Shown here: in pieces, positions 13,701-40,089 of the stretch
Position numbering within the stretch: position 1 is the first letter of the stretch
How the letters are laid out: the number at the start of each line of letters is the position of its first letter
Source: Flammula alnicola
Lineage: Eukaryota; Basidiomycota; Agaricomycetes; Agaricales; Strophariaceae
Direction: 5' to 3'
Length of the DNA stretch: 64,000 bases
Assembly (NCBI GenBank): GCA_015499995.1
Contig: JADNRV010000119.1
Span: 1 to 64,000 of the forward strand
Position numbers and translations under genes: made by a program
The notes under the pieces: model-generated
Database searches by the model: none
The model's input: only the letters and a program-made list of their open reading frames with translations
Told to the model about the DNA's origin: nothing

Positions 13701-14345
13701 ACTTGACCTTTTGCGACGAAATGATATTGTGACTTTGTGTGTTTTAACTTAAGTGCGATGGACTGAAGCGCGATGTCTAGGTAAGGTCGACTTGGGCGCG
13801 TAGTACTCTATAGCTGCAGGGGACTTGTCTCTTGTGGTTAGCTTCAGATACGACTTCTCTCTTGACGATTTGCCGCCGTGGCCCGTGACTGGCTTATACG
13901 GTTTCATTCTCAAGACTTCATCGTTATGACTTGCTGTACCTAGGCCTTCATGATCCGAGGAGATGGAAGGAAAAATGGAGCGTAATATTTTACGAGAACA
14001 AACGACGAGATTAATGCATAGCACGGAAAACTATAGGAGTATAATAACTACGCATACCATGTTCCTTGCTGCTACCATCTGTCCTGATACTAGCAGCGCG
14101 ATCATAACTTCCTCCTCAAGCTATGTCGGGCGCTTCTGGCATGGAACAATCGTCCTCTTTCAGCAGGCCCCTGCTTCGAGCAGGACGATCGTCGGTTATC
14201 TTTGAAATCGGAGGGCTGGGAAGGATGGTAATCTCGTGAGGAGCATCTCCGAGCACGTATCCTTCAGGATTGTCCATAGTGTGGCCTGAAGTTGGACCGG
14301 CCAAGAACGCCTACCCCTCATCGGTAAAGTCAGGGATTCTCAGCC
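13701..14345 (-). pseudogene. DUF6535 gene 3' remnant with shared flank
   Basis: The DNA from about 13701 repeats the flank found after the truncated protease (4660-5000), including GCGATGTCTAGGTAAGGTCG. At 14116-14304 on the minus strand it repeats the C-terminal DUF6535 codons: MDNPEGY, LGDAP, ITILP, PARSRG and PEAPDI correspond to the end of the gene at 5029. The rest of that gene is missing. The remnant runs directly into the 3' end of the intact kinase. Confidence 0.8.
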
Positions 14346-15739
14346 TCTTTCGTAGTGCGGTGGACTGCGCCTGCGTGGGTCCATATCAGTAAACCAAGGA
14401 TGAGAAACAACCTCGTTCATTTTAATCCTATCCTGTGGCCGATAGCGCAACATATTCTCCAGCAAATCCCCTAGAAGTTGAATTTCGACCTCATCCAACC
14501 TGGTTCCAGGCCGTTCCATCATCGGGCCATCATCCCCAGTCGGCGGTGGTACGTCTTGACTACCAATACTCGCCAACTTCTGCTTGATGGACGTCTTCTC
14601 CGCAGGCAGCAACACCTGTTGCAGCTCCCGAGCCTTGGGCTTCCCGTCCTCGTCGAACCACAGGTGATCATTCTCGAACGCGCCCCACCACGGCTCTGGC
14701 AGCTTCCCGAGTGTCGCCACAATCTCCTTGAGGACCTCGTCGGCCCCTCCCAGGAAGGCCTCGAAAAGGGGAAATCCCGCACGGATTTCAAAGATCGTGC
14801 AGGCCAATGCCCAAACATCGGACGGTATACCTATCCTTCCCTCGAAGCGAGCTTCCGGGGACTGGTAGTGGGGCACAGTCGCTGGCTCGTAGTCTGTCGG
14901 GGGATGGGAACTGGAAAAGGATTGGCCGAAGTCGATGAGTAGGATATCTTCTTGGAGCAAGGTAGGGTTGGTCAAGAGTGCATTGTCGATGGGCGCAACG
15001 AGTTGCGCAGGTGCGTGAGGTCCTGGGGGACTGTGGTCGCGAGTTTCAATTTCTTCGGTCTCTGGCTGGCCAAGGTTGAGGTAGACGTCACTATCCGACC
15101 AGTTTTCAACGTTTTCAGCGACGCGGAAGAGGATGTTGGACGTTGTAAGGTCTGAGTAATATTATGTCAGCTCCTCCACCACAAAAGTTGGCACAAAAGT
15201 TGGCACAAACCTCCATGGACGAAGCCGGCAATGTGCATGAGCTCCACCGCGTAAACCACTTGCTTGGCTACTTTCCTAGCAAGATCTCCCCGTAGACGTC
15301 TACTTCCAATCACTCTCCCAGGGGAATCCGACATGGATAGAATGCTGGGTCCCGCGAGCTGAGAGACCAGACAGAGATGTGACCCGTTAGGCCCATGCTC
15401 TGTGAAATGGTCCTCGACGGTCTGAATGTTTGAACGAGCGACAGGATCTTGCGTTTGGATGTATTCCGAAAGTTTCTGGGGTACGGCCAGTTCTGGAATC
15501 TCGTCGGCCGGCTTAGACGATACTTCGGCGCGCATGACCTTGAGAGTCACAAGTTTTCCAAGTCGATTGCGAGCAAGCCATATAGTCGACGAGCCTCCAT
15601 AGCCCAATTTGTGGACAACTCTGTAGCGACCTTGTGAAAAGACATCGCCGATGGCGACAGGGTGGAAGCCACCAGGCCGGTAGTCTTCGACGTACTCAAT
15701 GTCGTCCAACCGAGAAGGTTGAAAGCGTGCCTGAGCCAT
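14340..15739 (-). CDS. SRPK-like protein kinase (CMGC group)
   Basis: Two exons (15739-15211 and 15151-14340) encode 446 residues. The 59-base intron splits the catalytic-loop Asp codon and contains a repeated TTGTGCCAACTT. The N-lobe has EDYRPGGFHPV, the glycine loop KLGYGGSSTIWLARN and Lys67. The catalytic loop reads HGDLTTSN with Asp177. DFG is at 250-252, then QSPEARFEG and DVWALACTIFEI. Between loop and DFG lies a spacer of about 55 residues, as in SRPK relatives. It should phosphorylate Ser/Thr proteins; the target is unknown. The last 15 or so codons after HPWF come from DUF6535 gene DNA read in another frame, so the C-terminus is chimeric. The broken copy at 10376 ends instead at HPWF-like plus SLE. 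Kinase identity is secure; whether the end matters is not known. Confidence 0.85.
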
Positions 15740-19677: not shown

Positions 19678-20281
19678 ATGGATCCGAGACATCCACGAAC
19701 TGCTTTCGCCGGACCTCTTGCATCAAATTATAAAAGGAACATTCAAAGACCACCTCGTTACGTGGGTTACCGACTACATAGAGGCAGTTAATGCGCCTGC
19801 CGAAGCCAAGAGAATTTTGGCTGATATCGATCGCCGGTGAGCTTCTTTCCTGACTCGTTTCATTCAGAACTGATGTTTGAATGTCAGAATTGCTGCTGCG
19901 CCTTCTTTTCCCGGGCTGCGTCGCTTTCCTGAAGGCCGGGGATTTAAGCAATGGACAGGTGACGATTCCAAGGCACTCATGAAGGTAAGCACTTCTTACA
20001 CATATTTTTATGGTCGATTAATATTATTGATTTCAGGTCTATCTTCCTGCAATAGCAGGCCACGTACCATCCGAGATGGTACGCGCTATTAGTTCATTTA
20101 TGGACTTTTGCTATCTTGTCCGCCGCTCTGTCATTGACGAAGACGACCTTGTGGACATCGATGCTGCTGTTGCCGACTTCCACCGTTACCGTGTCGCATT
20201 CGACCTTGTCCGTCCAGATGGATATTCACTGCCACGGCAACACTCGCTCGTTCATTATACACACCTGATCAAGGAATTTGG
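19678..20281 (+). pseudogene. Plavaka transposase, left part (truncated and split)
   Basis: Three exon pieces (19678-19836, 19888-19984, 20037-20281) encode a central part of a Plavaka-type transposase. The chain starts inside the protein at IRDIHELLSPDLLHQIIKG and passes DYIEAVNAP, RRIAAAPSFPGLRRFPEGRG, VYLPAIAGHVP, FMDFCYLVRR and HYTHLIKEFG. Splice phases are consistent throughout. The N-terminal half of the usual protein is missing. At 20281 the frame is cut by the KDZ element and continues at 33154 with APNGLCSSITESKH. This is a CACTA-like element relic that can no longer make transposase. Confidence 0.9.
20273..20281 (+). repeat. Left target-site duplication of KDZ element
   Basis: GGAATTTGG occurs here and again at 33145-33153, directly flanking the KDZ element. 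Keeping one copy restores the Plavaka frame (KEFGAPNG). Confidence 0.9.
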
Positions 20282-20286
20282 TGATT

Positions 20287-20306
20287 ATTCATGAATTTTA
20301 TTTAAA
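20287..20306 (+). repeat. Left inverted terminus of KDZ element
   Basis: This 20-base sequence matches the complement of 33120-33139 at 18 of 20 positions. It lies five bases inside the left boundary. Confidence 0.85.
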
Positions 20307-20632
20307 TATTTGACGATGTCGACGATGATTTATCTTTAAAGAAATCACGTTTAAATAGTGTTTAAAGACCCGAACCCCATCAGATTGACGGAAGAGAGGT
20401 GATGTGCACATTGGTTTAAGGATATTTAAATATGGATACACAACATCGATCCATGATTTAAAGATGTTTAAAGAAGTGTTTAAAGCTCCGTATTTAAATG
20501 CGGTATTTAAAGAGGTTTGAAACTTGGGTTTACAAAGAGATGAAAGTGCTAAGCAATAAGTTGGTAGCTATTTAAACCTCAGAATGCTTAAACAAACCCG
20601 GTTTAAACGTAAGAAGTTTAAAGATATTTAAA
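20296..20632. repeat. Left subterminal TTTAAA-rich repeats
   Basis: TTTAAA occurs more than a dozen times in about 340 bases, often as GTTTAAA or ATTTAAA, up to the stop codon of the transposase gene. The same motif is dense at the right end (32701-33130). Such arrays are plausible transposase binding sites. Confidence 0.85.
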
Positions 20633-23600
20633 TCAGGATTTGGCACTGTCACCCTCAGTCTCTGCAGCCACGGTGGCCCAGTCGACCGTGGTTTGCGGCC
20701 TTCTTCTCCACACGTATTGCGACAGTGTTTCGCCCTCTGAAGGCCATGCACCACCTGCATCAGTCAATTTGTGATTGCCAAGAGCGGCCATGTTTCGAAA
20801 CATCGCGGCTTTTTGGAGAGCGTAGGCGCGATGTCCATTTGACGGGATTACAGCGAGGTTGGATGGAATTGTGGGATCAACATAGCGTGGAGAGACAGTG
20901 GAATTGCTGAGGGATGTCCAGACTTTGTCCATTTTCTGGCAACCACGTACCAAGCGGCGGAAGTCTTCCTCAAGAAGTTCGACTTCTTCAACCCAGCGCT
21001 CCATATCTGCCCGAGCTCGGAACCACTGCACTTTCTCAGCTAAACATGCAGTTAGTATATTAGTTAACAAAGAAATCTGTGATAAGAAACTCACTGTCAC
21101 GAATGAAATCGGCTTTCTCTTCCTCGTTCAAGCCCTTCAGCTTTCCGAAAGACCAAATCCAACTGTCAACCGATTTCCCATCACCGACTTTGCGCGATGA
21201 AGTCGCATTTTTAGCGTAGGTGTCTTCGTCCTTTAGCTCCGGATAATCTTCCATGATGCTGGGGTCGTTTCCCTTGAGCTTGAGGATTTGACTCCGTGCA
21301 AAGCGATACTTCGAAACGTGAAAGTTCTTCTTATCCTTGACGCTATTGATTTGCTTCAAAGCACGAGTATTCTGAGAAACTCCCCGAGCACGTTCTCGCT
21401 TTTCATCCCGAAGAACCATGCCATGCATCACGGCGTTGCAAATAGCCTTGACCGAGTCGTTTGCTTGACCTTCTCGAAGATGGAACTCATGCTCAGCAGC
21501 AGCTTCGAGTCCGAGTTCTTGATGTTCCTTGAGATCGATCTCAGAGGGGAGGAAAAGTTTCTCCTTTTCCGGTTCCGTTGAGATTTCCGCATTGACAATC
21601 ATGTCGTGAAGCTGAGGGAATACAGTGACTTGAGCTTTGCGCCACAGCTTGATGTCAGTTGCAAGAGCAGATCGACGAGTGTTGATTGCTTCAGCATCAA
21701 CAGTAGTACCCCCACGTTTGAGTTCACGTCTATGTAGTGAGAAAATTAATTTTTGGATTTGTCGAGAGTCAGGAGAGTACGTACTGTCGATCCTGTAGCT
21801 TTATGCCAGTGTATATAATGCGAGAAAGGGCTGGTTGCTTGAGTGAAGACTCCCTTGCTTCAGTATGTTCCACGATGTTTTTCTCAGCTTGCTCAAGCGA
21901 TTGAAGAATTGAAGCTTGGGAAGGCACTAGAAGTGATATCAGCGAACGTTAGGAAAAAGAAGAAGGAACATACACTTTCCACACTTGAAGCGGTAGACGC
22001 TTTGCCATTCTCCGTTTTTGCGGTGCGGTTCCGTCGACTCTTTCTCCCATTCTCGGACCTTCTCTTCTCCGTGAACCAGACTCAACCCCAGGAAGTGATC
22101 GATAGCTTTCATACGGGATGTAATGGCTTTCTTCAATCGCTTTGCAAGAGATTCCGCTAAGTAATGATCTGTTAAATTCATTTAACGAAAGGATATTGAA
22201 TGTTACATACCAAGCCCTTGAACCTTTGTCCAATTCCAGTCATTGTGGAGATCATTCAAGGTATCATGACGATGGCCGTGGTTCATTTGTCTGGTGCTTG
22301 CTCCAGACTGCTTCGATTCAGACCACGAGACCTCGATTCCTTCTCCGTGTCCACGTCCTGTGCCTTTCGAATAATTCAGGGAGAATCGATATTTGCAGTC
22401 TTCTTTGTGACCATCAAGATGCTTCTTCGGAACGAGTAGGCGGATAGATGCAGCCGCTTCCGAGAGATGAATGAAGTTTGACGAGAACCGTGATTTGAGA
22501 TGGACGCAATATTGGCATGCGACATCGTAAGTAACAAGAATCTCCGGGAAAAATTGGCCGGCTTTGATGGAGGGATGAGAGACAAATCGTTCGAGAGCAT
22601 AAGCCAATCCGAAATCAGCGTTAGCATATCTAGGAATATAATTAGCACAAGTGGAATGAGCAATATCAATATCGAATTACCTTTCGCCTTTCTGTAGATC
22701 AATCAAAGAGAGAAAGACCATATGCCGGTTACATGAGACCCCAATCACACCGGTAATGACAGAGCCCTTAAACTTGAGTTTGTTCTGCATGTCGACTGCA
22801 TTGAATTTTGAGCATGTTGATTTCTATATTCATAGTTTCAGCAAAAGCGGCAGAGGGCTCAGAGTGATATACATACCTCTTCAGAATAGGCGACTGTATT
22901 CCGAACATAGTCGTTGTATCGTTCATCAGGCGGAAATAAGGCATGACCGTCCAGCAAGGAGACGTCGTCAGGATCATCAACCTTGGCCAGTCGCTGAAGC
23001 CCGAAATGGCCATCCATCATGAGCATCAAGGTGTTTAGAAACCTATGATATCAATAAAACACAGAAAGCAAAGAGAGCGAACTTGAAAGACTCACCCTAA
23101 TTCTTCATCGACACTACCCCATTGCTCATTAGGGACATTGAAGCCTGGCTCAGGGCAAGCAAAGCATGGAACAGCAAGGTTTCCCTCACGTCGAAGGGGG
23201 AATTCTTTGTCGATTTGATGAACCTGTCCGCTTCTTTTGATCATTGTCAATGCCCGCCAGAGACGTTGAACACGCAGAAATTGAGAATAAGGGCTCTTTA
23301 GGATTGTTAAAAGTATGCTCACATGGGAAACGAGTAGATCCACATACTGAAATGTTAGACAGGATCCCATTGTTGGTCTTTCGTCGAAGGGCTGTGAGAT
23401 AGTCATATGACGATTTCTTCGAGGTCAAGGTCTGGAGGTGGAAATCGCGGAGAACATTGAAAGTAAATCCGAGTTGAGGTTGATCGAGCGTTGCTGGAAA
23501 GATTTGAGACCGAAGCAAAAGGTCGACGCGGTCATGTTTCTCTGTAAGGCATCTACAAAGCGCGACTTGGGTTTCGTGGATTCCAGTGATGTCGACGATG

Positions 23601-24222
23601 GTGAAGGTAATCGGGGATGCACGAGGACAGCTGTCGCAATCTGGTCCATGTTTCAATGGGACAATGAAGCCCAGCTCTGACAGATCTTTGCGTTCAAGAA
23701 ATGACCCATTCCAAAACTCCGCCCAGTGAAACGGATTTGATTCGTGGCGATTCACAAAGCAGGTGGCACAGCAAGCAGTAAAGTCGAAGCAATCATTGCA
23801 GTGATAAAGTCGTCGGGCACCGGCTGTTTTGCAGGAGCAGGCATCATCGATAGTTGGAGGCGCTTCAAAAGAGAGCATAGACTTCAAAAACTTCCAGAAG
23901 TGCTTTTTGAAGGGGCCCATATACGAAGAAGCTCCCTAAAGGGACATCAGTATAATAGTCAATTTGCGGGAAAGTGCACAGATTTTACCTGTGGGCGGTG
24001 AATGCGGTCAAGGACTTGCTTATCGGGGAGTCTAGTGGAGTCTGTCGATGAGGACGAGGATGATGCCTCAGTGGTCGAAGGTGAAGTTTGTACAGCATCC
24101 GCAAAGCGAAGCCGCTTTGCATCACGAGTGGCATCCGAGGTTGCTGTTGGTATGTCGTCATCCTTGAAATTCTTCACTGTCGTTCGCCTCTTGACGCTCG
24201 ATCCTGCAAGCAGGCGTTTCAT
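20633..24222 (-). CDS. KDZ transposase with CxC2 zinc-cluster domain
   Basis: Ten exons (24222-23989, 23935-23348, 23295-23096, 23042-22877, 22784-22681, 22629-22211, 22168-21974, 21926-21785, 21729-21095, 21039-20633) join in phase into 1029 residues. After a Ser/Asp-rich leader comes the CxC2-type cluster: Cys111, 113, 124, 127, 133, 134 and 137 with His142 and His148, then LKHGPDC. The KDZ core follows: Asp351 in MMDGHFGLQR, the conserved DLQKGERYAN, Asp466 in VTYDVACQY, and Glu527/Glu530 in GEGIE with STRQMNHGHRHDTLNDL downstream. The C-terminus has the usual VQWFRARADMERW helix. No stop or frameshift is needed. It should cut and rejoin the ends of its own element. Intron phases and conserved residues give high confidence; activity is inferred. 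Confidence 0.92.
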
Positions 24223-24680
24223 GCTGAATGTATTATCGGAAGAGATGGGAAGAGGGGGAAAAAGTTATTCATCGCAACACGACCAAGGATTTACTTAACA
24301 TGCAATTTTGTGGCCCAGGACAATGCGGGTTGGTTGTTTCAAAGGCCATAGGGCCATGGTGGCGACTCCTGTGGCGAGAGTTTAGATAGCCGGTTCGTTG
24401 AGTGAATATGGCTATAGCCAAAGCGGAGAAAGCAAGTCGTAACTATATACTAGTGTAGCGATGAATGAGCTCAATTGTGCATTGAGTAGTGCTTAATGTG
24501 GTACAAATGCAAGTAATAGGGAGATGAGCAGTTGTAAAAGGTCGTACATAGGTCATGGCATGGCTTTGAGTTGTACTCGTAGAAAGCAGGTCACTGGCAA
24601 AGAGTCGCGGTGGTGATCGTTATCGACAATGCCCTCCCCACGTGGCATCAGCTCCGACTGCCAATCACCTCTAGGCTCTG

Positions 24681-25853
24681 CTAGGAAGGAGTCGCTTTCG
24701 TCGTCTGAGGAGACGGGTCAGGGAGAAATCCCTGCGATGAGATGGGTGGCATGTAGCTGAGGTCGAGTGATAAGTACGAGGCATTTGAATAGTGCTGTTG
24801 GCAGGCTCCTGGCTTTTGGATGGGAAACTCAAAGGATGGCGAGGATGTGACGGTGTCGGAGAAGAAAGTGAAGATGGTATAATCAGAAGCGTGAGAGCTC
24901 GATGCTTGCCAGCATTGGTCCACGCAGGCGCATTGAATGCGACTTGTCGTTACGCAGAAGAAGCCGTCGGACGCTGATTTACAAGGAATGTATCTTATAA
25001 CCAATGGATTGCCGCTGTTAAAGAGATATGTCAGAATAAACTAGACAGAAATAAGAAAGAGGCTTACCAAACAGCACAGCCAACTCCTTCCTTCACGCAG
25101 CCACAAGAACTGCGCACGCATTTGGCGGCTTCCCGAGTGTCGAAGTAAATGGCTTCCAGTGGCACGACGGAACTCGACGCCGCACCACAGGCCGACCAGA
25201 GTCCAACCCGAGGGTGAGGAGCGGCCTGCATATGCACAACAGTCCCACATTCCGTACTTCGCATCACCTCTTTCTCCTTGGCGTGTTGCGGCAGTGGGTA
25301 AAGCGGCAGAACAGACGGTTTGAACGGTTGGCTTTTGTCCGAGCTATACTCCACAATACCAATGAGAGTAAGCACGTTTTCGTCTGCCTCTTCCTGCTCT
25401 GCGACTGTTCCGGTAGCGTAGGGTCCGAAGCGTCTTGGTGGCCGCTGGCGTCTGCGTGCGTAACGCGATGTCGTCCTTCCCAAGTGGCCCTTGGGTAACA
25501 ATGACAGGTCGAGATCAAAGTCCCGAGTCCCAACTGGGTCTTTCAACAACGACTAGGCTCCGAGTCGGACTGGACACTCGTGCGTTGTTCACTGCACTGT
25601 GGTCGATCCGCGTGGCGCCCCTGCGCTGCAAACGAGATAGCACAATCGAGTTCTTCGTTAGCTGGTTGTAATGTCGCCTGGTGCCGCTGCCTGCTGGGTG
25701 AATGAGAGGAGAAATCTAGAAGTAGGAGGTCAGAAGAGTAGATAAAACGTGCCAGATGCGAGGAAAGTCACCAAAGGGAGAGCTCACATCACTCTTCGAG
25801 AGAAAGGGAAGGTGGTGTCCACATGGGCAGTTGAGACTACCTGCATACGACAT
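24681..25853 (-). CDS. Cysteine-rich protein carried by the KDZ element
   Basis: The last two coding segments are clear. One is open from about 25557 to 25068, spliced (donor GTAAGC) to 25014-24681. They read SCGCVKEGVGC, then CGNPLVIRYIPCKSAS and CACVDQCW, ending in a Pro/Ser-rich tail. The Cys spacing suggests a small zinc-binding fold around the CGCxxEGVGCxxCGN core. Similar Cys cores occur in unnamed agaricomycete proteins. The 5' end is uncertain. A good first exon is ATG at 25853 (SLNCPCGHHLPFLS) with a donor after it, but the link to the main exon near 25557 could not be fixed. It lies 460 bases upstream of the transposase gene on the same strand. Function unknown. Confidence 0.6.
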
Positions 25854-27390
25854 TGCACTGTAAATAAGTAGATTTTTTGTGAGTCAATCAGGTTAGATTC
25901 AATATAAAATACTGTACCTGTGTTTTTCTTGAGTTTCTGCAGCTACAGAGCAACGCGATGAAGGCAAGATGAAGGTGATGAACGACAATCAACCGACTTG
26001 AACACGGTTGATCGCATTTGCGTCGTGCGAGCGGAGTTTAAATGTTCACGGCCGTCGGCTGCTGCTGCATCCAAGCCACATCCAACCGTGCACAAACTGC
26101 ATGGGCATATGAGAGCCTCTAGGAATACTGTAGATAGAATATACGGGAGGCCTAAAGCTCCTCAAAATTGTTTGTTAGCTCTGAAATTGTTTTTATGTGT
26201 GCAAGAGATGCGCCTTGGACGCGCTTCGCGGCCGGTGTGACGCACGGCCGTGTCATCTAATTACTCTATCTTTCCTATTTGTAAATAAAATTCTCTACGC
26301 ATCACTTAATCGTAAACTGCGCTTTGTGCAATGCTTTTGCCACAAAATCACGTGTGTCAAAAGCATTGCAGTTCTTTCCCACGGCTACCATATTTTCTGC
26401 CGCTAATTCATGTCATTGCACGTCCCACATCAACCAACTTTGCATAAAAATATGCTTAATGTATTAAGGACATCATGTTAATTAAGTGGCCTCAAGATCT
26501 TGAATTGCCGAGGGGTATGCAATATCATCTTTTCCAAGCCCTATCTGTTGGAATATTGGGAAGCTGTGCGAGCGTGCGCGATGCACCAGTCAACGTGCGT
26601 CGGGATTCAACCCCGTGATTTTCATTCCTAGACTACATAAGCCGTTGTTGTGTATTTTAGTCCCCATCCGTTTGCCTCCTACGCTCACAGAGGCCAACCG
26701 GAATTCAATCTTTCTATGCTTTCCTCAGTCCGATCTTGAGATGATCGCGCACTTGTAGATTTGATTTCAACACTATCACTATGCCGATGACTTTTGTAAA
26801 TAACAATCGACAAAACCTCACAATCATTTGCCTACTAGTACCACACCGTGCAACGCATGGGTCACAGCTAGTCATCTATGTTTACTACATCCTTCAGAAA
26901 TGATGCCGGTGACTGTCATGGCACCCCATTTTCGGGTGTCTCTGGCTTCCAATGCTTTTCTGACCGACAAGTTCAAATTTAGTCTTTTGTAGTCACTGGA
27001 GTAAATGAATGAAAGGCACATACAAGGAAGCAAAATGGGAGCAAGGACTGTCATTAGTTGTGTGAGTGATTTCAGCTTGATGGCGTTGATAGCGTGTGTC
27101 CGAGTCATACGCAATCCAACTAGGAACATAATAAGAGACTTTCCAAGACAAATCCAATGAAAACTTACGAAGGTCTGTCCTTCAGCATTGCCACTGCAAT
27201 TGTTCCAGTTAGCATCAGATAAGATAATGGTGGTATTGTGACGTACATATAGCAGCGTTATTGTTATCCATGTTGTAAAGAGGAGCGATTTAGTTCACAT
27301 TTTAGTTTGCATTCAAAGTACATTTTATATTTCTGTCGCTTGGTCGTACGAATTGCCAAATTTTCCTCGAATCACCTGAAATCATACATT
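25854..27390. other. Middle of KDZ element, no gene recognised
   Basis: AT-rich DNA with short frames only. The longest (26872-27129, minus) has no recognisable domain. Divergent promoters for the flanking minus- and plus-strand cargo genes would fit here. Confidence 0.5.
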
Positions 27391-27620
27391 ACAGCTTTGA
27401 TCGGGACTAAGCAGCGAGCGCTTGACCAAGCGCTTATGGTGGAAGCGTCAGATTGGTCGGAATCTGCTGACGCTTTGGCAGAAGCATTCTTTTATTATAT
27501 TACCGCTTTGATCGAGACTAAGCGCTAAGCGCTCCACCAAGTGCTTATGGTGAAAGTGTCAGAGACACAGATCTAGGGAATTTGCTGACGCTTTGGCAGA
27601 ATCATTTTTTCATTATAAAT
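27391..27620 (+). repeat. Two-copy tandem repeat upstream of cargo gene
   Basis: Two copies of about 110 bases (27391-27500 and 27502-27620) share GCTTTGATCG, CCAAG-GCTTATGGTG and TGCTGACGCTTTGGCAGAA. They lie 70 bases before the ATG of the next gene, so they could be promoter repeats. Confidence 0.8.
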
Positions 27621-27692
27621 TCAGCGGGAAAAGAGTTGTGCTACCCAGAGCTTTACATCTACGAGTTCACTTCTATCTCCACATCTTCCAGC

Positions 27693-28630
27693 ATGCCCCG
27701 CCATCATCCTGCTCCATATTTTGGTCCTCATTCTGCGAACGATCCAGAGATTCAGGGACTCCTGAAAACCAAGGCGTTGCAAGTCATTAACAAGAGGATC
27801 AAAGAACGCTTGACCGAATTGGCTCCTGCTGTGCCGAGCGAGAAACATTCCCCACATCGCCGAGGTCATGAAGAGACTAAAGCCAGGCTGTGCCTTGTTG
27901 GAGAAGTCGATAAGGCCAGCAGATGGTTCCAACTAGTAAGTGTACTCTATAATATTTGTTTTCTTTCATCTTATGTTTCTAGTGCTTGACTTGCAAGGGT
28001 GGCGATAGACGCAAAGCACCGAAAGTTCACTTTATATCAGATCCCCTCAATCCCGTCTTTCTAACGGGAAATAGTGAGCTTGCAATGTGGTTCAAGATAC
28101 GCGATGAAATCACAAGGTTCAATCCCCGTCAATCTCAGGGCATTGCCACTCAGATTGCTCCTGCTCCAGCACAACATCGTCACATTCCAGCACCTATTCA
28201 GGCTCAACCAGTAGCGGGACCCGCTATTCGTGTACCCAGTCCTCCACCTTTGGCTCCTCCAGAGGAGAATCTCTTTTCAGAACTTGATTTATCATTTCCT
28301 GTGGAATTGACCGTGTACATTATCCCAGACACCGATGTTCGTACTATCACCCAAATTATATTAATGAGCTATTTGAACTGACTTTAATTCTCATAGAGAA
28401 CCCGCACTATTATTGAAGAGACCATCTATGCTCGCCATGATAGCTGTGTTCGGCTCAGTGATTTCAAGTTGCTTCTTGGATCAACAGGCCTTCAGCAGGA
28501 AGGGGCGCTAGAAGTTTATGACTTCTTCCGCAATGTCTGGGTTCCATGTCGGTGGGATACACCTCACTTTATTCCCATACGCTCTGAAGCGATGCTGAAC
28601 ATACGCTATGAGGGTCTTGCAGCGCTGTAG
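27693..28630 (+). CDS. Unknown cargo gene of KDZ element (268 aa)
   Basis: Three exons (27693-27935, 27983-28312, 28397-28630) join in phase into 268 residues. The N-terminus is basic (LLKTKALQVINKRIKERL). A CLTCKGGDRRK segment opens exon 2, and a Pro/Ala/Gln-rich linker follows. The C-terminal part reads RLSDFKLLLGSTGL and YDFFRNVWVPCRWDTP, which looks folded. I do not recognise a family. The second donor (GTGTAC) is weak and was chosen because it alone keeps the frame. The gene points toward the right end of the element and is followed by another + strand gene. A role in DNA binding or in transposition support is only a guess. Confidence 0.6.
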
Positions 28631-30155
28631 TGGAATTGGTCCATGCCGCTGATATGCCGTCTATCAGAAATCACTACAAACTTGCCTCTATTTAGTATTA
28701 GCCTCTCTGTATAACTATAATTACACTATTTTTGTTCCATGATCTGCTGAAATGTTTACATTATCTTGCTCCTAGACTACTTCTCTATCCAATAAAATTA
28801 TAAAAAGTGTAATAATTTTATGTTGAACAGAAGACACGAGCGTTCTGAAATGTGAAGATGTCGGAGTTTTAAATGACTTGGCACGCTCTTCCTGGCACGC
28901 TTGCCATTTCCAGATCATCTTATTTCGACACCGCACTTATCGCCAGCTGGCCATCACCAAAAAGAGTGCCCAACGAGCCGCCCACTCTCATTCTTCCATC
29001 CCCTCCATGACGAAATTCAAGCCAGAATAGCCTAGGAAAGAGATCAGCAACCGTAAGTACAATCCTTCTGCTACGTATAACCTGCTAATGCTTCATGATT
29101 GATTAGAGCGAGCCAATATGTTGAAGCAGCCAGACTCCAAGAGCTCCAAGAGCTTGCACACCACCTCGACCGAGCGATGGATGCCAGCGGCATGAGGCAA
29201 CTCGACATCCACAAGTGCGCTCGAAGGCAGTGTAAACCCCAATTCCCCACGGGGCGCTGTCACCAAAAACCGTGACGGCGGGTCCTCGAGTCCTTCCTCG
29301 CCAATGTCGGTTACTACGACGAGGGCGATGGGAGAGAAATGCGCCCGGTTCGGGAGCCTCTTCCAGATCGCCAATTGGCGGCCAAACAAGTACCCGTCTC
29401 GGTCGGTCACTGCTGTCGCCACAGAGGACTACAAGCAGCTGCAATCAACGGCGCAGACGTTTGGGATGGGCACGGCGACTCCTAACACGCGGCGCAGCAA
29501 GGAGGCAATGTGGTACTGCCGCGAGGGGGATGTAAGCGAAGAAAGCGAAGAAAGCGGGAACCTGACAGCCACGCGGCAGGCGTCGAGCTGGGGCCAGAGC
29601 GACAAGGAGTTCACGGAGATGGTCAGTGTGCAGTCCGTCGAGCACGGGCTGAACGAGCAGGAGATGAACGTTGGCGTGGCTGGGATGTTCCATGATGTAC
29701 GCATTTCGATGTCTCCTTCACTTGGTCCAGCTTCCCTGGCTCGTTTAATTGGTTCAACCATTGTTTTTTCAATGATTGTATGTATCTATTCCTTGAATAT
29801 AGGTTTTATTCACTTTCATACACTATCACCAACCTAATTTGTGGAAGGTCGGAGCATGTCGCTGCCACGCACTGCATTGCGACTTGCCGTTTCTGTCCAC
29901 CGCTTACTGTCTTGATAGCATGGCCCATCCATCTCTAGCGGAAGGCCCAAGCATGCCACTACCGAAGGTCTTCGTCGGACGCTTTGCCGCTTTGACTCAC
30001 TTTCTCCAGATTTTCTGCTCATTGTGTTGACTGCATGGCCCATCGATTGTGTGGCTCCTCTTATAACTTTGCAGGGCTATTATCTGGTACGTTCTTTTCC
30101 TCTTCTTTTATCGCATAGTTCACTTACCAAACTTCTTCCCCTCACAACTCTTTGG
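28631..30155 (+). other. Part of KDZ element with possible decayed gene
   Basis: Between about 29090 and 29840 the + strand has overlapping open frames with charged, gene-like composition: VEAARLQELQELAHHLDRA near 29110 and GYYDEGDGREMRPVREPL near 29310, then a 177-codon frame to 29837. I could not chain them into one protein with good splice sites. This may be a broken or unrecognised fifth gene. Confidence 0.4.
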
Positions 30156-32709
30156 ATGACTTCAGGAAAAGGTCCAGGCTTGCCGAAGGAGCAACGGGAC
30201 TGGGCGGTTGAACGTCTTCCGCAATACATGGCCAAGACCGGGATCCATAAAGCTGTCCGCGGTCAGCCAATACCAAAGGACGATGCTGATCTCAGAACAT
30301 TCCTCCTTGAACTTCGTGGGCAATTTATGGCGAAATTCAGCGAGTCTAACAAGGTTGAGATAGTGTCTGGAATGACTGAAGAGAAAATCGAGAGAGTATA
30401 TCCTGTCTTTTTTCATCTTTAAATTCTTAGCTAATAATTTTGGCCACAGCGATTTGACGACTTCTTCCGCAACAACAAAGCCCAAGCCATCAAGAAATGG
30501 AATATGTCTGTGGCACAGGATGCCGCCTCAGGCTCTGTGTCATCAACCCCAGCCTCTTCCCCTTCCGTCGCATCAACATCTCCTGTATCCAACGAAATCG
30601 CTCAACTCTGGTCCTCCGTCTTCCAGAAAGCGCCAATTACTGGACGAACTCTATTTGAGAATGAAAATCGGGACATGATCAACGCTGAAGTCAATGCAGC
30701 CCGACGATCTCAGTCAATCAGCCATCACCAGCACGTTGCCATGCTCAAGTCCAAGATGAAGGAACGATGGGATAGCTTGGGTGAGGATCAGGACGAATGG
30801 AATGAGAGAGCAATAGCTCTTTGTGAGTCCAATATAACGGAGAAAGAACAACGTGCAAGGTAGGCTCAGAAGACACTATGACTTAGATTTATTTCTTACC
30901 CACTCGTTCATAGGAACCAGGCGATCTTTGACTTGTCAATCGGGGCAGTCCTTCGACATCTCATTGGGCCCATCAAGGACGATAAGCACAAAATAGGCCA
31001 TGCGCGATTCCATGTTCTCTATGGTTATCGCGATGAGGACGACAAGTTGTGTACTGGATTGTTCGTGATTTATCCTCACTATTATTTTACTTGTTGCTAA
31101 CTTTGATTCTCCTCTAGTATCGATGTGCCTGATGATGTGATGCGAGCTCCCTTTGACGCCTTTGTGGACGACTACAAGACTAACTTCATTGGTCCGTGGC
31201 ATGAATGTTGCGAAGTCACTGTCCTCGGTGCGTAAATCTTTAATTTTCGCCATGATTTTGTCCTAATTTCTGTTTAGAAAATGAACCGAAACTGCCGCCA
31301 CCACAATCTCCCTTTCCTACTACGTTTGCTTGTGACGATCGTGGTTGTCCAATCCTACCTGCTGTCTGCGAAGATACGACCACTCCTGAAGCTCTCCGCT
31401 CTTTGTTGACTGATTTTGTTAAAAGACAATGGGGTATGTTCCGGATCTTATGATATCTATTTCAATTTTATTAAATATCCTTTCTAAAGAATGGTCAATC
31501 ACCCGCAATAATCCTCACATTCATATGATCCCACCCATCCCATGGAACGATCCTTCCCTTACAGCCAACCTGGCTGACCCGACTTGCAAGCTTCTTGACC
31601 CGGCATCTGCGAAAGCACCCGCACTTTATGCCTTGTTATCCGATTTCAAATCACGACAGCCAATGAGTCATGGGTTCCAGCTTTTCAATTTTCCGAAACC
31701 GACGTCATCAGCACTGCTCAAAGTTTCCACCGCACGGTCCGCACCACCATTATCAGCAAGCAACTCAACCATCACCACTGCTGGCACTCCCAAGGCGACC
31801 ATTCCATCCCTTTCTGCGGTCTCAACTACGACTCCGCAAGCTGCGAACCCTACATGTTCTTCTGTATCTAGCCCATCCACTGACGAACATTCCACGGCAA
31901 CTCCATTGCCTTCCACGGCTTCTCCATCTCCTCAGGCCGCTTCAACTCTGGCTCTGACTCCGCCTTCTGCCGCTGCTGCTACTCCATCATCAGCAACTTC
32001 GAAACAAACATTTTCCAAGGCCGCGTCACCACCAGCTCCGATTCCGCAATCCAATGCTGCTCCTACGCTGGCGGCTGTGGGTCACGTGGTTGTGGGTATC
32101 ACATCAGCCCAGCCACTCGACACGCTTGAAGGAACAGATGTTGGTACGACATCAGCGAGCTCGAAGAAGAACAAAAAGCGCAAATCCAACAAAGCAGTGC
32201 CGGTTCCACATATCCCCGTTGCAAATCCAACCACGGCCTCGAAGGCCATCCCAAAGAAGGGCAACAAGCGAAAATCTGACGTGACGGAGGAAGCCCAAGA
32301 GAATGTTAAACGCGCAAAACGGTACGTTAAATTCTAACGGCTCAAGTTGAATGTTACATTCTTAATTGCACCCATAGTGTCAATGAGATAGCCCCCATTC
32401 GACGCAGTGCTCGCCAGCTACAAGCTGAAGCTGAAGCATCATCTTCACATACCAAGTTTGTTGCTTTCTTTGTACAATTCATGTTCCTGTCTGATGACGT
32501 CCCGCAGGTCTCTGACCACTCTCGACCCTGTTCCTGACGGATCTTTCTCGCTCAGGAATGGAAAACCGGCAAAGAATGGAAAGAACTACTACTATGCCAT
32601 AGTAAATGATGCTAAGGTAGGCCAATACTCTTATAGCATGACGTCCTTGCTGACCTTTCACTGCACAGTGACTCACTCTTGCTCATCTGAGCAGAATCTG
32701 CATGTTTAA
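30156..32709 (+). CDS. Unknown cargo gene of KDZ element (698 aa)
   Basis: I model nine exons: 30156-30395, 30450-30859, 30914-31060, 31118-31227, 31278-31433, 31490-32321, 32378-32455, 32508-32616 and 32695-32709. All phases fit. The start MTSGKGPGLPKEQRDWAVER leads into helical segments. Near residue 185 the stretch KSKMKERWDSLGEDQDEWNERA resembles the last helix of an HMG box, but that is weak evidence. A globular middle follows (LRHLIGPIKDD, FHVLYGYRDEDDKL, IGPWHECCEVTVL). Then comes a Ser/Ala/Thr/Pro-rich linker of about 200 residues and a basic tail with KKNKKRKSNK and KKGNKRKSD, typical of nuclear localisation signals. The last exon is tiny and ends in the subterminal repeats. A nuclear DNA-associated protein is likely; its task in the element is unknown. 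Confidence 0.65.
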
Positions 32710-32853
32710 AGATATTTAAAAGGGAGTGAGCATCTCGTTGACTCCTTCAAATATCTTTAAACCCACTTTATGCAGAATTTCCATCCTCAGGATCGCTTTT
32801 TAAGAAGTTTTAAATACGGTTAAATTCCCTCTACTTCCCTTCCTCTTGACCTC

Positions 32854-32918
32854 TTTTAAACAGGTTTAAACGTGATGACCCAACACGTTGAGTTCATCAC
32901 GTTTAAACCTGTTTAAAA
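32854..32918. repeat. Perfect 25-bp inverted repeat with 15-base loop
   Basis: Bases 32854-32878 and 32894-32918 are exact complements and contain AAACAGGTTTAAACG. The hairpin lies inside the right subterminal array and doubles the TTTAAA motif in each arm. Confidence 0.85.
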
Positions 32919-32930
32919 CACGTACCTTAG

Positions 32931-33113
32931 GCCCTCGATTATCTTAGAACTAGTTGGCCGGATGTCTTTAAATAACTCTTTAAATATATCTTTCTTTAAA
33001 TACAAGTTCTCGTTGACATTGGTGCCCTCGATTATCTTAGAATTAGCTACCTGGATGTCTTAAATACTCTTTAAATATATATTTCTTTAAATACAGGTTC
33101 TCGTTGACATCGA
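32931..33113 (+). repeat. Two-copy tandem repeat in right subterminal region
   Basis: Copies at about 32931-33022 and 33024-33113 share GCCCTCGATTATCTTAGAA, the ACTCTTTAAATATAT block and GTTCTCGTTGACAT. They are about 90 percent identical by eye. Confidence 0.85.
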
Positions 33114-33119
33114 TGAGTC

Positions 33120-33139
33120 TTTAAACAAAACTCATGAAT
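33120..33139 (-). repeat. Right inverted terminus of KDZ element
   Basis: Its complement matches 20287-20306 at 18 of 20 positions. It lies five bases inside the right boundary, symmetrical with the left end. Confidence 0.85.
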
Positions 33140-33144
33140 TTCCT

Positions 33145-33153
33145 GGAATTTGG
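33145..33153 (+). repeat. Right target-site duplication of KDZ element
   Basis: Second copy of GGAATTTGG, the same as 20273-20281. Confidence 0.9.
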
Positions 33154-34173
33154 CGCCCCCAATGGTCTTTGTTCGTCGATTACAGAATCTAAACACATTA
33201 AGGCAGTGAAAGAGCCATGGCGCCGTTCAAGCCACTTTGAAGCTCTCGCTCAAATGCTAGTTACTAACCAGAGACTAGACAAGCTGGCTGCAGCTCGCGT
33301 GGATTTCCGGGCTCGCGGGATGCTCAAAACACCGCTTTTTGGTGAAACAGAGGTTACAGAGCCAGGACCACCGTCAATGCCACCTGAGGAAGATGACGAT
33401 GGAGGAGCGGTAGATGAGGATATTCTTGGTGAAGTTATCTTGTCACAAAAACCTCGTAAGTCGTGCCTCCGTTGAAGTTGACATTCTTGTTTAAAATCTA
33501 TCATCATACAGTTCCTCGCCTACCCCGCAATGCAACACAACTCGGTGTTCACCTCGGGATCCCTCATCTCCACGAACTCATTTCACGGTTTCTCTATGAA
33601 CAAGAACACCCTGATGACGACACCCCTTTGGACGACATTCCTCTTGACCAGTGTCCTACTGTCAAAGGAAAGGTCCGCGTCTTTCCGTCTGCCGTTTCAA
33701 CCTACTATGCGCCAAGTGACAAATCAGGCATCCGCGGCATGTTCAGGGAGAGGATCCGGGCTGTTGACTCATGGCGCAAAGGACCTGGAAGACGTGACAC
33801 GGTTTTTTTGTCAGGAGGTCCTGGTCTCGAAGGTTTTCGCGCTCTTCTTGTTGCACGTATTCAGTTATTTATGTCTGTCATTCATAACAAGGCAACTTAT
33901 CCTTGTGCGCTTGTTTCCTGGTTTTCAACTGTAGGAGATCATCCATGTCCTGATACTAGGATGTGGATGGTTGAACCAGATTTTGATTCGATGGGCGGAC
34001 GTGCTATGTCCGTCATTCATCTTGATACGATTTTGCGCAGTGCGCATTTGATGGGTGTCGCTGGCGACAACTTTGTACCTTATGAACTCAAGTTTCATAA
34101 TAGTTTAGACGCTTTTCGGTCATTCTATGTCAATAAGTATATAGATCATCAGTCCCATGAAATTGCTTTCTAA
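33154..34173 (+). pseudogene. Plavaka transposase, right part
   Basis: Two exon pieces (33154-33455 and 33512-34173) continue the protein cut at 20281: APNGLCSSITESKHIKA, EPWRRSSHFEALAQML, TNQRLDKLAAARVDF. After an acidic stretch come LPRNATQLGVHLGIPHLHEL, KGPGRRDTVF, GLEGFRALLVARIQLF and the ending NKYIDHQSHEIAF. This is the normal C-terminal part of Plavaka transposases and ends in a natural stop. It is separated from its left part by 12.9 kb and has no start of its own. Confidence 0.9.
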
Positions 34174-35780
34174 TATCAACATCTTTCTTGAGAAATAATA
34201 CTCTATTTTTCTGACTGACAATCTGGCTCATTGATGGACTTCGACGAACCACAATGTAATAGGCAAAGATGGCTGAGATAACTTATTATATGAAGACACT
34301 TTTAATTGAGAAAAGATACAAAAGACAAGTTTAGCCAGCTAAAGATAATATACTAAAGACGTAGACCCTCCAAAGATGTTCCAAAGACAAGTCAATCCGA
34401 GAGAAGAAGTCAAAGATGCTTTCTCAGAGACGAAGATACCAAAGACCAACCGGACATTTTCCTGATGTCCGACAGGCATTTAGCCTGTGTAAGCCTGTAA
34501 TACAGACATACATACATAGTTAACTTCAATCATTATCACATATGAGGACACTTCTAGCAACTCACTCAAAGTCAGAAGTCAGAACAGTTCCGACGAGGTC
34601 GGAGGAATATCGGATGGTGATGTTCGTAATTTGGGTACGGATGCCACAAATACGTACTATATATGTATCGCCCTTTCTTCGCCAATGAAATGGTCCGTGT
34701 CATGGTTGAACATTGAGGCTGGGTTGAGCCTCACTTCAAGAAAGAAGATACGTAGCGCTCATGTTTCTGAGAGTATAATTATATTGGTGTGGGCAGCAAC
34801 TAGCTGCTAACTTGGCGAAGGGTAGCGCAAGTTTGAGCAAGTAGGTGGATGATTCAAGCTGAAGGTGCGACTGGCTGGACAAATGCACATAATGTTGTCA
34901 AATAGTCGCTCTTCTATGTTTCTACTGCTGAAATACGCCGAACCATGGAGCCTTGTGTCTTTCCGCAATGGGAGAAGCACCAAGAAAAAAGGCTTCAGCG
35001 TTGTAAGGGGTATCACAAAGTACAAATTTAAAAAACATATGAGGTGGTAGTAAATCATGCAAGAGCATTTTTATATGTTGGAATTGAACAAAACTTGGAG
35101 GTATATAAAGTATATAATAAAGCAGGAAAATTGGAACGTGTATGACCTTTGAAAGGGATGCACGTAAGTAAAGCACAAGAAAGGAATTATCACCACCACA
35201 ACTTCAACGACCACGATTCCCGCACCGCGTCTATGCCAACTACCCGAAAACAAGAAGAGGAAAGCAGGGAGGGGAGGGGAGAGAAATAGGAATAAAGATA
35301 ACTAGTGTGGTGGGGTGAATGAAAACACGTCACGGTACCTCGCGCGACCGCAAAGGAAAGTCGAGCAAGAACCCAGCTCGCACCATCGAAAAAAGGTAAT
35401 AATCGAAATCAGCTCCCGTCCGTCCCCCGATCCACGAGGAGAACGAGAACGTCGTGGAGTCAGAGAGGAGACGCGTAGTTCGTCCTTCGTCCAGCGTTCG
35501 GCGTTCGCCTCGAATCCTCCTCCGAGACCACGAGAAGTACCCCGGCATACATACGTACATATCATAGATGTCGACAAGCAACGTCGCGTAGCGCGTAAAG
35601 GGCATGAAGAAAAGCAAAGAAAAAAGAGGGGAAGGAATATAAGAAATGGGGTATGTAGTAGTATCGATTCCATGAAGCAAAAGCAAGAAGAAATGCTCTC
35701 CAAGAAAATCAGAGAAGAAGAATCATTTGTGGTTGGGTAGCCCGTCGGTAGGTTGTCGGCCAAGAAAGACGAGAAAGGAC
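34174..35780. other. No gene recognised
   Basis: AT-rich DNA with repeated AAAGA words around 34290-34450 follows the Plavaka stop and may hold the rest of that element. Frames near 35300-35740 on both strands are low-complexity and overlap the 3' flank of the next minus-strand gene. Confidence 0.45.
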
Positions 35781-38127
35781 TTAGATACCCCCATAGGCGT
35801 CCTCAGGATCATACATAGAATACACCGTATTGCGTTTCTTCTCACCGCCCATCACAGCAGCACTCTGCTCGCTCTTCACCACCCCAGCATCAAACGACTT
35901 CGTAGCAGCCGCCGGCGGGGGCGACGGCATCCCAAAGCTCGACGCCAGCGGGCTAGGCGTAGTCGGGAACCGACTGCCGGTAGCCGTCAACATCCCACCA
36001 ACAGCATCACTACTCCTCGCCCCCGGCCCTGTCCCCAACATAGGGTACCCGCCGACCGAAACGCGCGACTCGACGTTGATCTCCGGCAGAGTGGGCGGCA
36101 GAGAGTCGATGCGGTACCGCGAGGTCGGCGTGAGCGCGGGCGAGGGCGGGACGGGGAACTCGAGCGGTGCGACCTGGTCCTGCGAGCCGAAGCTCTCGCC
36201 CGACACGGGCCTTGTGTGCTCCTGGGACGTCTCGAGGTGGCGGTGGTCGAAGGCGTACTGTCCGCCAGGGCTGGGCGGCGCGGAGGCCGGGTCGGCGAAG
36301 GGCGATACACCATCAGCAGCATCGGAGGAGAACTTGGGTGGGGGCAAAGGCGGCAGCTCGCGTTCAAGCGCGGCAGTGTGCAGACCCTCGGGGACCTCGG
36401 TGTTGAGCCTCCGCGAGATTTCGACATATTGGGCAGCTTGGTAGGGCGAGACGCTGGACCGGTTGAGATCGACGTAGTCGTTTGCCGGGAGGCTTTCTCT
36501 GCGCATGACGGTAGGCGATCCGGGCTGGCCCTGGCCCTCAGAAGACTGCGAATGCGACGATGCTTGACGGGTGAGAACGGGATACGCAGCGGCAGCGCCA
36601 ACCGGAGGTTGATGAGGATTTTCAAATTGGTACTGCTCTCGCGGAGAGACCGGAGAGAAGGGCGACTGGGCAGATGGAGCGGCAGGGTACAAGGGGTACG
36701 CAGAATTAGGCGTCATCGGAGACGGCGCATTGTTCATGACCTGTCCTGGGGCGAACGACTGGAAGCTGGCCGCATATCCCGCATAGCTCTCAGGGTATCC
36801 TACAGAGTCGTGGTTGTAAGCAGGACCGGGATAACCGTACTGGGTGCCAAAAGTGGGCGCGGGCGACGCGAGGTGTCGTTCGATCATCGTCGGAGGACGA
36901 GGGTTGAACCCCCGCGCGACAGTGTCGTCGTGGGTCGGCGGATCGTTAAGCATCACAGCGGAACGACGGAAATCTTGTTCGTCGAAGCCTCCATCGTTGT
37001 CGCGTTTCCTGGAGCGGCGCTACAGGAAGTACATGTTAATTAATTAAGCGAGTATTGGTCACGAAACAAGGATAGCGCACGATGAAGAAAGTTACAGCGA
37101 AGACAAGGGCTGCGATGGCCACGATTCCGGCACCGATTCCGCCAACTACCGCACCAGTGCTGGTCCCAGAAGAAGCTGCGGGCGTGCTTGAGGCGCTTGC
37201 CGCTGCGGACGTGAACGAAGAAGTGGATCTTGTAACGGAAACCGTCACCATTGCGGTTTGTGTGGGCATCGTAGTGATGAGTTCCGGGGTTGACTATATA
37301 TATGCATAAATTGAGATATTAAAGCTAAGACACGAGAACAAAACAAACTAACAGAGGTTGTGGTCACTACGACTGGGGTGGTCGACGTCGTGGTGGGTAA
37401 GGCAGAAGAGGTCGTCGTACTTGTCGTGGTCGAAGACGACGACGATGAGACAGACGACAACGTGGATGACGACGTCTGCACAGTAGAAGAACTTGAAGGT
37501 GTAGGCAAGCTGATGACATTGGTCGTAGTAGCAGGTGGGACTGATAAAAAAAACAAGAGATTCCGTCAGCGGGTTAATTCCTAGAGGAAAAAAAGACAAA
37601 AGGGAGGTGGCAGGAGAAGCCCAAAGCCACCGAACGTTTATACAAAGCACAAATGCGACGGCAAAATGCACAAATACTAATTACTGACGGCGATGTTTGA
37701 AACCTTTACCATCAGTGGGCTGATTAAAGATGGCAGTTGGGTCAAACCCAAGCTGAGGAGCCGGGTTTGGCGCACGTCGCTGAGCAGCCGCTACAGCATG
37801 ACGATGACGAAGGTTCTGCGACAAAGTCATCTCTATTCCCTTCTTGTCAACTATTTCCCGATAAACGTTGTTGTATTTCACGGCGAAAGTGAGGCGTTGT
37901 CGGATTTGAAGCGGCGGGAGCAAGGAGCGGCAGGGGTATAACGATAGCTGGAAAAAACGAATGTGAAGTTCCCAAGAAGAGGGAAGGGGGGTAAGGGAGG
38001 AGGGGAGAACGTCGACAACGACAACAACGGCGAGAAGGAGAGAAATGAAAGTCGATGAAAAGGAGCGGATTGGCACGAACCGCGTGAGGGCACAATAATT
38101 CCCACGGCCCATTGACACGGTTGCCAT
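35781..38127 (-). CDS. Single-pass membrane protein, Ser/Thr-rich ectodomain
   Basis: Four exons (38127-37710, 37540-37353, 37293-37081, 37019-35781) join in phase into 685 residues. The N-terminus has a hydrophobic stretch (FISLLLAVVVVVDVL) that can act as signal anchor or signal peptide. After it the open frame may contain a further in-frame intron (GT at about residue 40 to a TTTTCCAG acceptor). A mucin-like Ser/Thr region follows, then one membrane segment (VVGGIGAGIVAIAALVFAVTFFI) and a basic stop RRSRKR. The cytoplasmic tail of about 400 residues is rich in Pro, Ser, Tyr and Gln, with SPVSP, LPPLPPP and PSPALTP motifs and MYDPEDAYGGI at the end. This resembles fungal wall-sensor architecture (stalk, one helix, disordered tail), but family membership is not shown. 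Confidence 0.75.
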
Positions 38128-40089
38128 CGTGGCGACCAAGGATCAAAAAATTATCAACCTTGCCGCGCGCTTGCCGTATGAACCTCAGTAAATCTAAAAA
38201 TCAGGTGTATGTAAGCTAAATGTTCGAGAATAGTCGAGTATACAATTACCTGACCAATTTGTCGTCTGTATCGACTATAGTCGGACTAGGGTTCTGCCAG
38301 AATACTCATGGGTAAGTCAGGCTGCGTAAGGTGCCAAGCCTTGCCAAGCAACCCACAGCCATCCTTACAGTCAAGTTGAAGTCAGGTTTATAGTCATGTT
38401 CCTCTCATTTCTGTCTTTTCGAAGTCAGTGTATAGTCATGTCCCTTGTTTCTACTAGTCAGGGCGCAGTCAGTTATGCATATGGTCATAGTCAGCTTAAA
38501 TCCGGTAAGTGTCCGGTATTTGACGGTTAATAGTCTTCGCTTTCCCACTGCTGCCATTCCATAGCACAAAAGTATATTATGATAGATGTAAATTAAACAA
38601 CAATATGAGCATAAGAATACAGGAATAAAACAGCTATAAGAATCTCCGGAGTCCGATACTCAAGTTATATTTTCAGATGAGGTCTTCTTGCCTTCTCTCC
38701 GCTCGTCAAGCTGAAAAAAACATAATGAGCGCAGCTACGGTGAAAAGACAGTCTCGACGAACCATTTTCTGGAACTCGAGGCAAATGGACGCCGGTTGAG
38801 TACAGCAGCGCGAGTCTTTCAAGATAGAGGAAATAAGATCTGGTACTGCCGCCAGCGTACCTTATGATCAGTATGCATAATACAGAGATTCTCGTGGCCG
38901 AAAACATACCGTGTTTTGTGGGCTGGGCCGTTCTGCGATGTACCTGCTGTCCGGTAGCCCTTCCATTCATGGTCGTCGTTCATACCCACAGGTCGTGCGA
39001 AGTGGCGGCGGGATTGGGTGGGGCTGCATAGGCCGCGTAGTTGCTCCTGTGCTGCTCAAATAAGGGGGCGAGGGCGAGATGACAGCCTCAAGCTCTGTTT
39101 CCTGCACGAAATGGGGTTGGAATGGGTTAGTGGTAGCATACGGGGCAGCGAGATTGTTGACGAGGGTGCTCATTACCTCTTTTTTGTTGCCATTGGGCAG
39201 CGCAGTGATGAGGACAAGCCTTCGTGGTTGTCATCATGGTGGCGGTGAGGTGGTTGAAAGAGACAAAGTTCAAACTTCAACGACTTCAATCAACAAGGTC
39301 ACGTGCGTCGGAGTTTCATTTGACTTGGAAGATTTCGATACATCTTCCGATTCTTGAAGGCTTCGAGTCCAACATTCACTGCAGGTTTCGAGCCTTTCAA
39401 CACTACCATTGCTCAGACCGGATTACCATTCTCCACTTTTCCTGATGTTCATACTGAGGAATGTGGAATTGAGAACAATGAGCTTGTAGTAGAAGACGGA
39501 GAAGGTTCAGACGATGATGAGGCTGACTCAATGGTACTTTGACATGTACGGCCACTATGGAATACAGTTACAATCTACGAGACGATTTCATTACTTTTAC
39601 CAAACTCTAACCTGACCAGAGAACACGACTATTATCGGACCTTTACCAGACGTTAATGGGACATATATTTGAGAAAATGTTGCCATCAAATCAGTCTGCA
39701 ACCGTCTGACTGATACATGACTGAAATACAGAAACCAGACTCCGAACGAACATATACGTGAGTCAGCCGGACTTTTGTGATTTACTGAGTATGAACTGTT
39801 GTCCTCTCCTTTCTCACAGACTCCACGTCGACTATGTACTACTTATCTAGAGACAGGCTGACAGGAAACTTGAAAATCTCGTTCTGCAATGGACTCTGAA
39901 AATGCCGAGGGACTCACTGAAGCAGTTGCGCGTCCATGATTTCATGGATTTTCAAAGTTCAAACATCAGATTCACTGGGGTGCAGCGGAGGCCGTTGAGA
40001 ATCAGAAAGATTGTGCCTCAATGTCATGTAAGTACTTACTTGCACATGTACATATGATCTTCCGATTCTTCCTTGATTGCCCCGAAATA
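38128..40089. other. Mostly unassigned; AGTCA-rich stretch
   Basis: The AGTCA word occurs about nine times between 38300 and 38500. Some TGACT words occur near 39700-39770. Fragments of open frame (39079-39542, +), including an acidic end (DGEGSDDDEADS), could be a decayed gene. No family recognised. Confidence 0.4.

Follow-up and report, generated by a model that had tools for sequence, protein, structure and literature searches.

The KDZ superfamily of DNA transposons was reportedly named by Iyer et al. in 2014. Among its described members, KDZ1, KDZ2 and KDZ3 of Cryptococcus neoformans, whose movement has been directly observed, are 9-11 kb long and combine a cysteine-cluster (CxC1) KDZ transposase with inverted repeats of 139-241 bp and with duplications that measure 8 bp in KDZ1 and 4-8 bp in the other two; the passages of that study drawn on here mention no second gene (PMC12810828). 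In the passages used from a survey (Kojima 2025, PMC12730594), target duplications measure 8 bp in Zisupton, which has inverted termini, and in a Dileera element, and 7 bp in two Kyakuja families; certain Kyakuja elements of mushrooms carry a TET/JBP gene beside that of the KDZ transposase, and CA..TG termini without inverted repeats are reported for Kyakuja. Here we describe a KDZ element in a 64,000-nt stretch of the mushroom Flammula alnicola (the window: positions 1 to 64,000 of contig C23, JADNRV010000119.1, 164,830 bp), together with its relatives in the same assembly (GCA_015499995.1; 74.4 Mb, 861 contigs), which was the genome searched throughout.

The element is very probably a KDZ-superfamily cut-and-paste DNA transposon that recently inserted into a truncated copy of Plavaka (Table 1). 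This reading rests on two near-identical copies that share their termini, have short duplications and lie at unrelated sites, and on target sequences that stand single elsewhere. The second copy, on contig C232, is 99.9% identical to the window copy, with 10 substitutions over 12,863 bp (8 + 2 in its two pieces), and when the whole window was compared with C232:14000-51999, all matches longer than 150 bp fell within the element, as these two pieces, the flanks being unrelated. Between the pieces lies a 5,123-bp insert (C232:33298-38420) with TAGTGTTTG ends, an 8-bp duplication, CCTAGGAA, on both sides, and a hAT dimerisation domain (PF05699, 38.6 bits, cut-off 21.4), features that place it with the hAT transposons. 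Probes of the two element ends (left 328 bp, right 304 bp) each found one other near-identical place, on C232, and within both copies the right-end probe also matches 65 bp of its own sequence in inverted orientation. Exact matches to a 19-base end motif number four, the ends of the two copies, and matches with one mismatch number two, on C58 and C467; with up to two mismatches the motif occurs at 24 places, vs 18 for a backward control. An earlier note, made from the letters of this DNA alone, had called the insertion young and proposed looking for other copies with its termini; the C232 copy, with the same ends in unrelated flanks, answers to both.

Table 1. Features of the KDZ element, its insertion site and related elements (window coordinates unless a contig is named).
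Feature	Position	Strand	Remarks
KDZ transposon	20282..33145	none	12,864 bp in the 8-bp reading; basis: same stretch in the C232 copy, and paralogous empty site
Left copy of 9-bp direct repeat GGAATTTGG	20273..20281	+	8-bp duplication GAATTTGG in the preferred reading
Right copy of direct repeat GGAATTTGG	33145..33153	+	first G probably the element's last base
Left inverted-repeat arm	20287..20345	+	59 nt, 76% complementary
Right inverted-repeat arm	33081..33139	-	59 nt, 76% complementary
Left subterminal array	20301..20632	none	14 TTTAAA motifs
Right subterminal array	32705..33125	none	14 TTTAAA motifs
KDZ transposase gene	20633..24222	-	10 exons, 1,042 aa, CxC2 and KDZ domains
Spacer between the two divergent genes	24223..30155	none	5.9 kb
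Second gene	30156..32537	+	NCBI model P0085, 684 aa
HMG-box-like predicted fold	30627..30857	+	P0085 about 140-216
Plavaka 3' remnant, upstream part	19688..20281	+
Plavaka 3' remnant, downstream part	33145..34468	+	ends CTGATGT
Element of second family	C58 about 24525-39062		edges found by seeking the right-hand flank at the left
Element of third family	C412 about 71802-85607		edges less sure

Related sequences lacking the element were found for both copies. On C24 both Plavaka flanks of the window copy are joined with a single GGAATTTGG at the junction, and on C568 both flanks of the C232 copy are joined and GAGTCTAT stands once, differing by one substitution from the GAGTCTGT that is duplicated in C232. 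A near-identical copy in unrelated DNA, with each target present once in related sequences, thus argues for recent and real transposition. The likeness of C24 is confined to window 19688-34468 (element excluded), the adjoining 1,500 bp on the left and 164 bp on the right being unlike, so C24 is a paralogous Plavaka copy and not the other allele; the empty Plavaka site that the earlier note had proposed to look for therefore exists, in a paralogue rather than an allele. Across the junction this uninterrupted paralogue reads ...LIKEFGAPNGLCSSITES..., so that the proposed read-through from KEFG to APNG is real.

The host sequence is Plavaka, as had been supposed, but is a 3' remnant rather than a gene. 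The single PF18759 match reported on C23 (19658-19768, 45.8 bits, cut-off 26.3, one TAG inside) spans only profile positions 289-325 of 325, and the similarity to C24 begins abruptly inside it. On C24 the Plavaka domain extends upstream of the common part (368301-368875); its stop codons there could reflect introns or decay. The target of the KDZ element was apparently a piece of Plavaka already without its front part, so that the insertion probably broke no working gene. Both Plavaka copies have the same right end, CTGATGT; the 3' terminus of PlavakaB is given as TGATG in the relevant passage of Kojima 2025 (PMC12730594). With 123 of 185 candidates scored, at least 148 domain matches to PF18759 were counted across the genome. 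Apart from the element, the two Plavaka copies are set apart by a single substitution and by three indels (7, 6 and 6 bp, at window 19991/19992, 33517/33518 and 34379/34380), each with the extra bases in C24, which resemble transposon excision footprints.

The inverted similarity of the element ends is imperfect and begins symmetrically, five bases inside the direct repeats, in agreement with the earlier description. Of the terminal 70 bases at each edge 47 match when shifts of up to 3 are allowed, whereas 19,401 random segment pairs drawn from the same element average 22 matches and never exceed 34. Of the 31 TTTAAA motifs in the element, 28 fall within the two terminal 450-bp stretches (14 + 14) and three in the 11,963 bp between them; the TTTAAA-rich ends look like putative transposase binding sites. 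In the spacer the open reading frames tested gave no Pfam family above cut-off, and comparison with the fetched parts of relatives gave short weak matches at most (best E 2e-4 over 17 aa). Both edges had been described as fixed to the base; the left one is kept here at 20282, and the right one, formerly at 33144 (12,863 bp), is probably at 33145 (12,864 bp), because a 9-bp target duplication fails in other insertions, as shown below.

In the model of the transposase gene nine introns, each of 42-55 bp with GT-AG borders, were placed by eye. Once these are removed no in-frame stop remains and the frame is open through all exons, as the claim of a transposase without stops or frameshifts had anticipated; the lone TAA counted inside the KDZ domain by the genome search falls in an intron. 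An NCBI model of the same gene (P0001) is shorter (817 aa) and 99% identical, and its matches to KDZ (PF18758, E 6.9e-54, profile positions 2-217 of 217) and to the N-terminal cysteine cluster CxC2 (PF18803, E 2e-26) support the family assignment. Homologues number 84 proteins (7,996 candidates scored), of which the closest from other species, those of Gymnopilus dilepis (P0002), Pholiota conissans (P0003) and P. molesta (P0004), known here as proteins, are 52-55% identical over 87-100% of the transposase; the G. dilepis protein (1,056 aa) aligns with 100% of the model length at 52% identity. An alignment of nine sequences (our own included) has 18 invariant D/E positions; D351, D479, E540 and E543 belong to them, and the catalytic residues may be among these. 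A tree of the KDZ region was built from 11 Flammula loci and 83 homologues, all placed on query positions, with the loss of two loci without a match and one too short, while 81 of the 83 proteins passed the 200-residue limit; the window, C58, C412, G. dilepis and the two Pholiota sequences form one clade (support 0.97). C548, a TET-linked KDZ locus in this assembly, shows 29% identity across 191 columns. With its intact reading frame the element is plausibly autonomous.

With PF18758, the cysteine cluster CxC2 and evidence that it moves as a whole, between defined ends and with a target duplication, the element belongs to the KDZ superfamily. It shares with the C. neoformans elements the cysteine-cluster KDZ transposase, a size of the same order, inverted termini and, in the preferred reading, the 8-bp duplications of KDZ1, and differs from them in the type of cysteine cluster, the length of the inverted repeats and, as far as the passages used show, the second gene. 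Its likeness to Zisupton and Dileera, compared by description only, would lie in the 8-bp duplication, and for Zisupton also in the inverted termini; of the four insertions considered below, three have no exact repeat longer than 8 bp, and in the fourth this length is the best reading (the edges in C412 being the least sure), with 7 bp as the less likely alternative. With the TET/JBP-bearing Kyakuja it has in common a second gene beside that of the transposase. We file it as KDZ and not as Kyakuja, because it is without the termini reported for the latter: its own are CAG...TCA (TGA...CTG in window orientation), and it does have the terminal inverted similarity described above. The element is thus ordinary in kind, a young and well supported KDZ insertion; for one KDZ clade of mushrooms it gives ends and duplications at base resolution, and the KDZ elements that the survey characterises in the passages used are those with TET/JBP genes (PMC12730594). 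In the open-access literature searched, none of the titles listed concerned this element or this fungus, and no paper turned up on transposable elements of F. alnicola, which does not show the element to be unpublished.

TET/JBP was considered as cargo of the element and rejected, as none of the 32 matches to PF12851 in the genome (26 above cut-off) is on C23 or C232. KDZ elements carrying TET are common in this genome: 16 of the 26 above-cut-off matches lie within about 6 kb of an opposite-strand KDZ match (counted by eye), for example at C548:16141-20441 and C415:24162-28460. Eight other KDZ copies with almost equal scores (C848, C105, C856, C318, C605, C612, C215 and C852) suggest that another KDZ family has recently undergone a burst of its own.

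Duplication lengths were compared in four delimited insertions of the clade, on C23, C232, C58 and C412. With the transposase end at the left, the longest exact repeats are GGAATTTGG (9) in C23, GAGTCTGT (8) in C232, ATTGCTCG (8) in C58 and ACTCAATG (8) in C412. All four insertions have a G after ..CT at the right end and a G before TGA at the left end. If the ends are set as TGA...CTG, the duplication is exactly 8 bp in C23, C58 and C412, and C232 keeps an extra left G; if they are set as GTGA...CTG, it is 7 bp in three insertions and 8 bp in C232. The pair of edges used for C412 was not listed by a first automatic edge search; it was one of 12 shared-repeat rows obtained from narrower stretches, a choice resting on the TGA.. 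and CAG.. ends and the TTTAAA motifs that lie just inside. C467 was not counted as an independent insertion: over a comparison of 1,836 bp that takes in flank as well, C58:37538-39373 is identical to the start of the C467 stretch, and the assembly has here either redundant contigs or haplotypes left unmerged. The TET-linked KDZ pair C548/C415, meant as a control for duplication length, is 97.7% identical over 5,184 columns and 99.7% over 2,855, and since this likeness runs through almost the whole of the parts fetched, no edge is visible in the pair.

The best reading of these junctions is a target duplication of 8 bp. The window copy does have a perfect 9-bp repeat, and the earlier note had taken it for the target duplication; a true length of 9 bp is very improbable and was rejected, the repeats in C232, C58 and C412 being exactly 8 bp, with none longer in the placements tried (C412 being the weakest of the three), and a G following ..CT at every right end. 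Nine bases are feasible in C23 only, where the terminal G and the target G coincide, and because every junction has this G, the ninth base of the C23 repeat is probably the element's own. A single insertion can thus overstate a duplication by one base, and the proposed comparison of sites (9, 8, 8 and 8 bp) shows that 9 bp is not general. More credit is due to the possibility that the ends are always GTGA...CTG, with a duplication that is usually 7 bp (8 bp in C232), as described for two fungal Kyakuja families in the survey passages (PMC12730594): the G before TGA at all four left junctions would then belong to the element and no stray base would be needed. We still consider it the less likely account, since the eighth repeat base in C58 and C412 must then be coincidence, the C232 copy has 8 bp in any case, and the termini are unlike CA..TG ends without inverted repeats. 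Neither length would be unusual, as both have been published for KDZ elements.

Returning to the recent insertion as a whole, a rival reading is that the C232 and window copies are one insertion assembled twice or two haplotypes of it. The 99.9% identity is what this would predict, but the flanks already refute it, and the target sequences and duplications of the two copies differ and the C232 copy bears its own hAT-like insert, so that we give it practically no credence. Several points do weigh against the recent insertion of an element with 8-bp duplications. The empty site on C24 is a paralogue and not an allele, and C568 offers a homologous site that has diverged (99.6% in the left flank, 95.6% in the right), either an allele or a duplicate. 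The extra G at the left end of the C232 copy is left unexplained by a simple 8-bp model, and C412 is weaker evidence for 8 bp because its edges were chosen by the likeness of their insides. Neither transposition nor expression was observed.

The second gene, divergently oriented relative to the transposase gene, is the part of the element worth following. One of our two splice models for it agrees with P0085, and the other ends at 636 aa. No Pfam family scored above cut-off, P0085 and P0086 each having one sub-cut-off match, and HMG-box families were not among the matches, from which the filters remove most weak ones. Exon 2 has no Pfam match at E <=10, and its C58 counterpart has a sub-cut-off match to Chromo (E 0.019). 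The structure model of the whole protein is poor (mean pLDDT 39) and a profile search of solved structures with the whole protein found nothing, while exon 2 gave two weak matches to mitochondrial membrane translocase (best E 0.16); the fold matches of the stretch predicted to be HMG-box-like include the RAG complexes 6cik and 6cij. Among the candidates scored, from a capped list each time, a homologue search returned two proteins, both from Flammula, and a second search returned the query only; since the second missed the paralogue that the first had found, the method is insensitive here and the protein should not be called an orphan.

This pattern of few homologues and no Pfam family above cut-off could be that of unrelated host cargo acquired by chance, yet we think such an origin unlikely. 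In this genome all 23 exon matches to the gene at E <=0.001 are confined to five contigs with this KDZ clade, and the orientation opposite to the transposase is kept in three families whose transposases are 39-69% identical by piece. The host protein HMGB1 assembles DNA ends for cutting by the RAG recombinase. Tentatively, and at odds we would not put high, the KDZ lineage might by analogy encode its own HMG-box-like DNA-bending partner, retained through deep divergence, that assembles the TTTAAA-rich ends for cutting. The conserved second gene is a modestly interesting accessory gene of the element and a testable candidate helper of KDZ transposition.

As its family would suggest, the transposase, through its CxC2 and KDZ domains, would bind the TTTAAA-rich ends, excise the element and join it to cuts about 8 bp apart, and repair of these staggered cuts would leave the target duplication. 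With less assurance, the second gene product may aid transposition as a DNA-bending or chromatin-binding helper. Elsewhere in the window, positions 14340-15161 (- strand) hold a partial protein kinase gene (PF00069, 44 bits).

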